DNA of 36,457 nt from Bacteriovorax sp. (lineage in GTDB: Bacteria > Bdellovibrionota > Bacteriovoracia > Bacteriovoracales > Bacteriovoracaceae), in contig JACMRM010000182.1 of assembly GCA_014376445.1 (NCBI GenBank), forward strand, positions 1 to 36,457, given 5' to 3'. Positions 27,825 to 31,117 of this stretch are shown piece after piece. Positions within the stretch are counted from its first letter, which is position 1, and each line of letters begins with the position of its first letter. Under the pieces are notes generated by a model. That model was not told where the DNA came from and did not search any database. It saw nothing but the letters and a program-made list of their open reading frames with translations. The translations under genes and the position numbers were made by a program.

Positions 27825-28472
27825 GTGTCATTCATTATCAGTGCCCAAGATTACGAAGAAATGAAAAAATTAGCGAGCTTAGTTCGCGTTATGAATAGCT
27901 TAGGACATAACCCTGCGACTAGCGGTAACTATTCATTAAGATCAAAAACTACACCAGAAATCGCACTTGTTTCTGAATCAGGAATCGATAAAAGCAAGTT
28001 CACTGAAGACAACTTTCTTCCGCTTTATATATCAAGCCGTGAAATGCACGAAGACTACAAACCATACGGAAGAAAATCTTCTGATGAGACTGATATCCAT
28101 TTAACAATCTATCAAATTACAAAAGCAAATTGTGTACTTCACAGTCATATGCTCGATTCATTATTATTTTCAGATTTATTTCCTGGAAAACAATTCGCAA
28201 CAATTAAAGACCTCGAACTTTTAAAAGGTTTCAAAGATGTTAAAACTCACGAACTGGAAATAAACATTCCTGTTTTTGACAACACTCAAGATATCAAATC
28301 TCTAGCAGAAACAATTAAGCCTTCAATCCTATCGCAGCCGACTAGTTATGGTCTTCTTCTTCGCGGCCACGGCGTGTATGTATGGGGTGAAAGTGTTGAA
28401 GAAGCTAAACGTCACCTGGAAGTTTTTGAATATATTTTTAAATACTACTTAAACTCAAATAGAAGATTCTAA
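27825..28472 (+). CDS. mtnB: Methylthioribulose-1-phosphate dehydratase
   Basis: 215 residues, class II aldolase fold. NPATSGNYSLR is the N-terminal substrate loop; VLHSHMLDSLLFS supplies the two zinc-binding His and LLLRGHGVYVWG the third. MtnB dehydrates methylthioribulose-1-phosphate to the diketo compound used by MtnC. It starts with GTG at 27825, with an AAGAGAAA ribosome region; the in-frame ATG at 27861 would remove the first helix and is less likely. The mtnD start is 2 bp after its stop. Confidence 0.9.
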   Translation: MSFIISAQDYEEMKKLASLVRVMNSLGHNPATSGNYSLRSKTTPEIALVSESGIDKSKFTEDNFLPLYISSREMHEDYKPYGRKSSDETDIHLTIYQITKANCVLHSHMLDSLLFSDLFPGKQFATIKDLELLKGFKDVKTHELEINIPVFDNTQDIKSLAETIKPSILSQPTSYGLLLRGHGVYVWGESVEEAKRHLEVFEYIFKYYLNSNRRF

Positions 28473-28474
28473 TC

Positions 28475-28996
28475 ATGGCAAAGTTATTTATTCCTTCATC
28501 AAATGAAACAGTCACTGATTTTAATAAAATCCAGTCGATACTAAAAAGTCATGGCATCATGATCGACAAATGGGAAGCCAATACCAAACTTGCCGATGAT
28601 GCTGATCAGGCGACAGTTCTAAAGGCCTACGAGCATGAATTAATGCCATTCATGACAAAATACGGATTTGAAACAGCTGACGTCATCAACGTCACGCCAA
28701 AAACTGAAAACTTAAAAGCTATCAGAGAAAAATTCATGAAAGAACACCGACACAGCGATGACGAGATTCGCTTCTTCGTTGATGGTGAAGGTATCTTCTG
28801 GTTCCACTTAGACAATAATGAAGTTCTGGCAGTGACATGTCAGGCAGGCGACTTTATGACTGTTCCGAAAAATTTCCGTCATTGGTTTGATCTTCACCCG
28901 AATTATTTCGTAAAAGCTATCCGCATTTTTTCAAACATTGAAGGATGGGTTCCTCATTATACTGATTCAGGTGTAGACCAAAAATATAACCCTTAA
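28475..28996 (+). CDS. mtnD: Acireductone dioxygenase
   Basis: 173 residues, cupin fold. KEHRHSDDEIRFFVDGEG carries the two metal His and the Glu, and VPKNFRHWFDL the third His, matching the 3-His-1-Glu centre of the family. It splits acireductone with oxygen to 2-oxo-4-methylthiobutanoate (Fe form). Upstream N-terminal residues (SSNETVTDFNKIQSIL) follow family pattern. It lies between mtnB (2 bp) and mtnC (9 bp) in a tight operon. Confidence 0.93.
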   Translation: MAKLFIPSSNETVTDFNKIQSILKSHGIMIDKWEANTKLADDADQATVLKAYEHELMPFMTKYGFETADVINVTPKTENLKAIREKFMKEHRHSDDEIRFFVDGEGIFWFHLDNNEVLAVTCQAGDFMTVPKNFRHWFDLHPNYFVKAIRIFSNIEGWVPHYTDSGVDQKYNP

Positions 28997-29005
28997 GAGA
29001 ATCTC

Positions 29006-29686
29006 ATGAAATATATTTTAACTGACGTTGAAGGAACGACAACTTCAATCAGCTTTGTTCACAATACACTTTTTCCTTTCGCCAAAGAAAGGCTGAAGGC
29101 TTATGTTGCTAAAAAATTAAATGATACTGAAGTTAAAAATATTCTCATGCAAACTAAAAAAACTGCCCTTGATGAAAATCATAAAACTCTGACTGATATT
29201 GAAGCAGCTGATTTGCTCATTCACTGGATTGATACTGACCGTAAACATCCTGCTCTTAAAGCGCTTCAAGGCATGATTTGGGAAGAGGGTTACAAATCAG
29301 GGGAAATCAAAGGTCATGTCTATGAAGACGTCCCAAAAGTTTTAGAAGCATGGAAAAAGCAAGGCTTGATTATGGGAGTCTATTCATCTGGTTCAGTGCA
29401 AGCGCAAAAATTAATTTTTGAATTTTCAACAGAAGGTAATTTGAAGTCTTTTTTTAAAGATAATTTTGATACAGAAATTGGAAATAAAAAAGAAGTTTCG
29501 TCTTATAAAAACATTGTTGAACAATTAAAAATTCCGGTGGAAGAAATTCTGTTTCTTTCAGATATTAAGGAAGAACTGGATGCTGCAAGAACTGTAGGAA
29601 TGAAAACCATTCAATTAGTACGCCAACATAATGTTGTGACTGGAGATCATGCAACGGCAAAAGATTTCAGCGAAATTAAAATCTAA
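29006..29686 (+). CDS. mtnC: Enolase-phosphatase E1
   Basis: 226 residues, HAD superfamily. TDVEGTTTSISFVH holds the catalytic Asp and the Glu-Gly-Thr-Thr signature of MtnC; VYSSGSVQAQKLIF is motif II and LSDIKEELDAARTVG motif III. It enolises and dephosphorylates the MtnB product to acireductone. With mtnB and mtnD this gives three consecutive steps. Missing here are the nucleosidase/kinase or phosphorylase and the isomerase MtnA. Its last 4 bases overlap the convergent outer-membrane protein gene. Confidence 0.93.
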   Translation: MKYILTDVEGTTTSISFVHNTLFPFAKERLKAYVAKKLNDTEVKNILMQTKKTALDENHKTLTDIEAADLLIHWIDTDRKHPALKALQGMIWEEGYKSGEIKGHVYEDVPKVLEAWKKQGLIMGVYSSGSVQAQKLIFEFSTEGNLKSFFKDNFDTEIGNKKEVSSYKNIVEQLKIPVEEILFLSDIKEELDAARTVGMKTIQLVRQHNVVTGDHATAKDFSEIKI

Positions 29687-30669
29687 AAGCGCCACCAAAA
29701 ATCAAGATTGAGAAGATAGCCTTGTTTTCCGATTTTAAATTCAGAAAAATCATTCGAAGACACACCGATCATCGTATGGAATTCTTTATCAATGATATAA
29801 TATCCAACGACTCCTCCGATTTTTTTCTTGTTAACGTCGATTTTAGGCCCGAATAAAAGTCTGTTCCAGTTATTAAACAGGTAGCCGTATGAAAGGGTTA
29901 ATTCTAGGTTCAAATTATTTAGGTACTCTTCAGAGTTATATAAATATTCATCCTGAGGTTTCTGAGTAAAGACTCTTAGTTTAATATAAGAATTAAAATT
30001 AGAATTCGATACCATATCAAGGTAGCCAGTGAACTGATAGGAGCCTTTGGTTTTCTCATTGTAATATTGAAACCCGTTTTCAACGGCTATTTCGTAATCA
30101 TCATTGCTAAAAATTGTATTTTTAATAGAAACGTTGAATATCTTAAACATCGTTGAAATTAAATTTGTATTCACCTGCCAACGGTTGTTAATCCCATAGC
30201 CCAGAATTGAAGGCCCTGCTAACCACTCTTTCTTCATAAGATTTGAAGCTGTAAACCCCTGCGCTAGCCCAGTGTAAACTAGAGGCTTATATTTTGAAGC
30301 GGCTTTACGATTTTCTTTATAAATTAAATCAAAACGCGCAGGCATTTCATCATTTTTTGTTTTAGTAAGGTCAACTTTCTTCAAATAATTTTCAGGTCTG
30401 ATTAATCCACTTTTATTGTGCGTTTGAACTGTTGCTGTAAAAAAATCCGGCTCGATATTCATCACTTGAACACGGGCATAACCAAGAATACTTTTACTGG
30501 CATGTGAATAAATTAAAAGAAGGTCACCCGGCTCCACTTCAATGCTAGGATCGAGCCTTTCAACTTTAATAACATCGTCATTTAAAATTTCTGTGATCAC
30601 AAATTCTTTTTCGTAAGAAAAGACTGTGGGGCTCATAAACAAAAAAGATAATGCCAAAATGAATTTCAT
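29683..30669 (-). CDS. Probable outer-membrane beta-barrel protein, unknown function
   Basis: 328 residues with signal peptide (MKFILALSFLFMSPTVFS). The N-terminal part (about 20-95, EKEFVITEILNDDVIKVERL) forms a small soluble domain. From about residue 120 on, alternating hydrophobic/polar strands repeat (NNRWQVNTNLISTMF, GYLFNNWNRLLFGPKID, KQGYLLNLDFWWRF) and end in an aromatic residue, as in outer-membrane barrels. No family recognised. GAGGT precedes the ATG. It diverges from the MaoC-like gene, with only 40 bp between starts. Confidence 0.7.
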   Translation of the reverse strand: MKFILALSFLFMSPTVFSYEKEFVITEILNDDVIKVERLDPSIEVEPGDLLLIYSHASKSILGYARVQVMNIEPDFFTATVQTHNKSGLIRPENYLKKVDLTKTKNDEMPARFDLIYKENRKAASKYKPLVYTGLAQGFTASNLMKKEWLAGPSILGYGINNRWQVNTNLISTMFKIFNVSIKNTIFSNDDYEIAVENGFQYYNEKTKGSYQFTGYLDMVSNSNFNSYIKLRVFTQKPQDEYLYNSEEYLNNLNLELTLSYGYLFNNWNRLLFGPKIDVNKKKIGGVVGYYIIDKEFHTMIGVSSNDFSEFKIGKQGYLLNLDFWWRF

Positions 30670-30696
30670 TAACTAAAATACCTCTAGAACGTTAAA

Positions 30697-30712
30697 AAGG
30701 AGATCCTTTATC
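30697..30712 (+). promoter_or_regulatory. Ribosome site AAGGAG before an AUC start codon
   Basis: AAGGAG (30697-30702) stands seven bases before ATC (30710-30712), in the frame of the MaoC-like protein. No ATG, GTG or TTG occurs in that frame between the stop at 30674-30676 and codon 51 (30860). Confidence 0.6.
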
Positions 30713-31117
30713 AAAACTGGTGACATTTATACTGAAAAACTTACCATAACTGCGTCTCATATTCAAAAATTTGCTGAATTTTCAGGTGACTTTAATCCTG
30801 TTCACTTCGATGATGAAGCCGCTCGCGTTCAGGGATTTAAGGGAAGAATTGCTCATGGAATGGTGGCAGCGTCTCACTTCTCAAAAATATTTGCCAATGA
30901 ATTTCCAGGTGCAGGAACAATATATCTAAACCAAACTTTCACATTTTTAGCGCCTGTGTATGTCGATGATATTTTGACTTACAAACTGGAAGTTGTTTCT
31001 CAAAAAGAAGACAAGCCAATCTTCAATGTTAACACTGAAGCTTTCGGCGAAGATGGAAAATTAAAAATTTCAGGTATTGCCATTATCAGGGCAAGAATCC
31101 AGGCTTACCAGGAATAG
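30710..31117 (+). CDS. MaoC-like (hotdog-fold) dehydratase, apparently AUC-started
   Basis: 135 residues if read from ATC at 30710. The first ATG of the frame (30860) would remove the active site. FAEFSGDFNPVHFDD carries the D-x-N-P-x-H catalytic pair (Asp27 and His32) of (R)-specific enoyl-CoA hydratases, followed by GRIAHGMVAASHFSK and the closing FTFLAPVYVDD. Length and motif order are those of a complete single-domain enzyme, which hydrates enoyl-CoA in lipid or polyhydroxyalkanoate metabolism. The ribosome site is ideally placed for ATC. A single base change (ATG to ATC) or a sequencing error are alternatives. Its 3' end overlaps the convergent YkgJ-like gene by 48 bases. Confidence 0.8.
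   Translation: MKTGDIYTEKLTITASHIQKFAEFSGDFNPVHFDDEAARVQGFKGRIAHGMVAASHFSKIFANEFPGAGTIYLNQTFTFLAPVYVDDILTYKLEVVSQKEDKPIFNVNTEAFGEDGKLKISGIAIIRARIQAYQE

Follow-up and report, generated by a model that had tools for sequence, protein, structure and literature searches.

The gene of initiation factor IF3, infC, starts at ATT in E. coli and at ATC in Streptomyces, and the sigR gene of Streptomyces, which is repressed by IF3, starts at GTC, a codon reported to be conserved and tested by mutation (PMC5472188). In Bacillus, an rny-lacZ fusion with its start altered to AUC is still expressed, at a far lower level (PMC10303841). Here we describe a gene of Bacteriovorax sp., called maoC below, that carries ATC at the position of its start codon. 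This gene resembles infC in having an AUH codon behind a Shine-Dalgarno sequence, which the initiator tRNA would read with a third-position mismatch, but the infC codon is conserved and autoregulatory, whereas the ATC of maoC is confined to a single genome, and relatives of this metabolic enzyme gene have ATG. Like sigR, maoC is a gene other than infC whose non-canonical start is put in the wrong place by annotation software; the sigR codon, however, is reported to be conserved and its effect has been tested by mutation, neither of which is true of the maoC ATC. Both maoC as an enzyme and AUC as a kind of start are already known.

The gene lies in a window (the whole stretch of DNA that was analysed, 36,457 nucleotides) that makes up contig 97 in a draft metagenome-assembled genome of 3.41 Mb, which consists of 284 contigs and is 87.8% complete.

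The maoC frame and its product

The features of the locus are as follows.

30697..30702, + strand: Shine-Dalgarno AAGGAG, read in the sequence; duplex with CACCUCCUUA of -8.7 kcal/mol
30710..30712, + strand: ATC at the start-codon position, 7 nt (ATCCTTT) after AAGGAG; pairs with ATG in congeners
30710..31117, + strand: gene for a PhaJ/MaoC-like (R)-enoyl-CoA hydratase, 135 codons plus stop, assigned from PF01575, 1IQ6, congener identity and dN/dS
30860..31117, + strand: sole ORF opening at a canonical codon (ATG, codon 51), 85 aa, from the ORF list; without GDFNPVH and without Shine-Dalgarno
29683..30669, - strand: divergent neighbour gene, 328 aa, from the ORF list

Reading of the sequence gives an open frame of 135 codons at 30710-31117 that ends in the stop TAG at 31115-31117. 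The nearest in-frame stop upstream is TAA at 30674-30676, and between it and codon 51 the frame contains no ATG, GTG or TTG; an in-frame ATG at 30662 was discarded as a start because it stands before this closing stop. With table-11 starts, the ORF from ATG 30860 is the only one listed at the locus.

The translation from ATC matches the Pfam family MaoC_dehydratas (PF01575) with an E-value of 2.6e-21 and 75.9 bits, against a curated cut-off of 27, and it matches the (R)-specific enoyl-CoA hydratase of PDB entry 1IQ6 over query residues 14-127 (E 4.9e-25). The active-site motif D-x-N-P-x-H is present with its Asp and His, GDFNPVH (residues 26-32) being aligned with SEDFNPLH of 1IQ6. We take these Asp and His residues to be the catalytic ones. 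Judged from sequence alone, the product is like PhaJ, of the MaoC family, in length, hot-dog domain and D-F-N-P-x-H motif, and the start codon is the only unusual trait of the gene. The region 30710-31117 is thus read, from these matches, as coding for a MaoC/PhaJ-type (R)-enoyl-CoA hydratase of an ordinary, conserved kind, and its own genome holds no second maoC copy.

The first canonical codon, codon 51, lies beyond the active site, and no ATG, GTG or TTG would be expected to yield a functional product. Since GDFNPVH precedes codon 51, the ORF from 30860 cannot encode this enzyme; it lacks the active site and has no Shine-Dalgarno sequence, it was rejected as the source of the enzyme, and it is unlikely to give an active product. 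On all these points the first-pass annotation was borne out: it had placed AAGGAG seven bases ahead of ATC, with coordinates that proved exact, had seen no canonical start before codon 51 in a frame that we find closed upstream by TAA 30674-30676, had found the whole active-site motif in the frame, and had described a complete 135-residue enzyme from ATC with an N-terminus like that of related proteins. The closest homologues indeed begin M-K-T-G-D-(I/V)-Y-T-E-K-L, with Met at the ATC.

The start codon and the frame in related genomes

We found maoC in 10 of 14 genomes of the genus; it was not found in the other four congeners, two of which (G003 and G005) are about 99% complete. Protein identity to the congeners ranges from 67 to 94%. 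The 5' end could be read in eight of them (G007, G009, G002, G012, G013, G006, G010 and G001), and the alignment puts ATG at the exact position of the ATC in all eight. This is the comparison with close homologues that the first-pass annotation had called for, with ATG at that codon in the sister species G007 as in the rest, and it upholds the claim that ATC marks the start-codon position. It also makes the ATC private to this metagenome-assembled genome. Conservation, by which functional non-canonical starts are recognised, is consequently absent among the congeners with a readable 5' end.

The nearest relative is G007, with 83% identity in DNA around maoC and 94% in protein over the first 64 residues. 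The leaders of G007 and of this genome align base by base (...CTAGAACGTTTTAACTGGAGATCAATATGAAG against ...CTAGAACG-TTAAAAAGGAGATCCTTTATCAAA), and the spacer ahead of the start codon differs as well, being GGAGATCCTTTATC here and GGAGATCAATATG in the sister. With ATG in the sister, the alignment indicates that the start codon changed on the branch of this genome, along with several spacer bases. Neither the 14 genomes of the genus nor the genome contigs, from which records of this genome itself were possibly excluded, yielded another genome of the species, and the maoC leader had no match among viral contigs.

We also asked how often such a site occurs in this genome. The pattern was AAGGAG followed at 5-9 nt by ATH (ATC, ATT or ATA) and at least 100 open codons, the frame having no canonical start either upstream or within its first 40 codons; it was searched on both strands of the window and 75 more stretches of the same genome, 0.81 Mb altogether. 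The maoC site was the single match, which places the arrangement of AAGGAG and ATC beyond chance. In a survey of orthologues, with about 120 comparisons with G007 and 24 with G009, maoC was the only gene clearly start-less without another start nearby; when the listed sequence was inspected, the other start losses flagged there looked like ORFs that are misplaced or spurious.

These results bear on the possibility that the organism has ATG at 30710 and that the C at 30712 is an error of consensus or assembly. We consider this doubtful, but to be reckoned with. The genome is a draft metagenome assembly, every readable relative has ATG, the frame bears no sign of decay, and one wrong base among some 3,000 start codons would need no high error rate; on the other hand, the adjoining spacer also differs from that of the sister, so that this is a diverged stretch and not a lone odd base, and the roughly 120 orthologue comparisons gave no other clear start loss, so such errors are infrequent, which argues against a consensus of very high error rate.

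The coding sequence itself is under purifying selection. Against G007, dN is 0.039 and dS 1.13, a ratio of 0.034; 50 of the 60 differences fall at third codon positions, and the 130 aligned codons contain no stop or indel. With G009 as outgroup, 18 synonymous and 7 nonsynonymous changes are assigned to the branch of this genome, and 15 and 4 to that of G007. The low dN/dS, the third-position bias and the similar counts on both branches indicate selection on the frame over almost the whole period since the two lineages separated, and a gene without expression over much of this branch would be expected to carry many more nonsynonymous changes. The small number of these means that the loss of ATG is recent, that it is not real, or that initiation at AUC may be good enough for the loss to be tolerated.

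The stop codon lies five codons later than in G007 (window positions 31094-31117), the protein ending in RIQAYQE here and in RARV there. With the stop shifted and the start changed, both ends of maoC have been altered on this branch or on that of the sister. The shift is small, and is compatible alike with a recent, an unreal or a tolerated loss of ATG.

A real and very recent start loss, with maoC becoming a pseudogene that gives no useful enzyme, would agree with this moved stop and with the absence of maoC from the four congeners, including the nearly complete G003 and G005, which makes the gene dispensable. We nevertheless regard it as unlikely, since the frame shows no stop, no frameshift and no nonsynonymous rise, the strong Shine-Dalgarno sequence has been kept, and the loss would have to be very recent.

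AUC initiation and its possible role

Within the genus, infC offers a case of near-cognate initiation. The locus in this genome is listed here.

G000:C210:594-1100 (L063), - strand: infC; further loci are L054-L062 and L064-L066

The infC genes of the genus have no canonical start ahead of the conserved coding part. In this genome and most congeners the frame reads ATT ATT AAA or ATT ATC AAA directly after TAA. The better-spaced codon is the one preceding AAA/AGA; seven genomes, this one among them, have ATT there and six have ATC. This codon, next to the conserved K/R-(D/E)-N, stands at constant spacing behind GAGGT or GGGGT. Spacing and alignment point to the second codon as the probable start. 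This looks like the known near-cognate start of infC, which the genus has conserved as AUU in some sister species and AUC in others. Together with Streptomyces infC and the Bacillus reporter, this makes initiation at AUC plausible in these bacteria, though weak, by analogy with a gene whose start of this kind is known already from other phyla.

The Shine-Dalgarno sequence of maoC is the strongest of nine congeneric copies, with a duplex energy with CACCUCCUUA of -8.7 kcal/mol, while the others range from -5.1 to -6.9. The leader showed no regulatory structure, its fold having a z-score of 0.06 against shuffled sequences. A hairpin AAAGG-AGAT-CCTTT, which would mask the Shine-Dalgarno sequence, was considered as a regulator and set aside, the fold being no better than that of the shuffles.

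A recent private change of the start codon that leaves weak initiation at AUC is the reading that we tentatively put first, as the likeliest. ATG would have become ATC by a recent G-to-C change in this genome, or by a small local change of the spacer ending in ATC, and the strong Shine-Dalgarno sequence would have stayed in place at the right spacing. The 30S subunits would most likely still begin with fMet at AUC, only a small fraction as often as at ATG, and the full 135-residue enzyme would be made at a low level. The AUC of maoC would then be a weak start private to the lineage, and not an evolved switch. Two points of this reading are inferred, namely a genuine C at 30712 and initiation of maoC at AUC. 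We counted for this weak AUC start the ATG in eight of eight relatives, the selection on the frame, the strongest Shine-Dalgarno sequence, the unique match in 0.81 Mb, the infC precedents and the Bacillus reporter. Counted against it were a base known from a single draft metagenome assembly of 284 contigs, 87.8% complete, the four of 14 congeners in which maoC was not found, so that a silent copy would be tolerable, and a C-terminus that has also drifted, with its stop five codons beyond that of G007.

The first-pass annotation is supported in its account of the gene, the lack of a canonical start, the ribosome site and ATC as the start-codon position; its further proposal, that AUC is an IF3-sensitive device keeping the enzyme low, is not supported. 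Such an evolved weak start, holding the enzyme at a chosen low level, would have parallels in the IF3 control known for infC and for sigR with its GTC (PMC5472188), and the infC of this genus is also on a non-canonical codon. However, the maoC codon is ATC in one genome against ATG in the sister and all other readable relatives, whereas the sigR codon is described as conserved across Streptomyces; the leader structure is no better than chance (z 0.06); and the gene, missing from four of 14 congeners, is dispensable in the genus. Apart from the codon, nothing speaks positively for the proposal, and we judge it highly improbable. Hardly more credit can be given to a natural AUC-initiated metabolic enzyme gene outside infC, fixed in one Bacteriovorax-like species, in which the stronger Shine-Dalgarno sequence compensates and the level of IF3 sets expression. 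From the sequence comparisons, the ATC is a change confined to one genome, be it a weak start, a knock-out that arose very recently or an error in the sequence, and does not represent a regulatory device kept by conservation.

If real, the maoC start would offer one of the rare examples in nature of a plain enzyme gene beginning at AUC, and would remind us that genes with such starts are dropped or truncated by gene callers; if it is an error or a fresh start loss, it is relevant only to the annotation of this genome. For near-cognate initiation in these bacteria, the conserved AUU/AUC start of infC is the sounder example.

Neighbouring genes

The 328-residue neighbour at 29683..30669 is divergent from maoC, which therefore opens its own transcript; as maoC is also convergent with the next gene, it is probably transcribed as a single gene. 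A second non-canonical start had been flagged in the window at CTG 27768, and was dismissed since that gene, homologous to the one in G007, has an ordinary GTG start at 27825. This gene (27825-28472) begins a run that extends to 29686, in which it is followed by an acireductone dioxygenase gene (28475-28996) and by one for an enolase-phosphatase-type HAD hydrolase (29006-29686). By its position we take it to be probably mtnB, and the run at 27825-29686 looks like methionine salvage.
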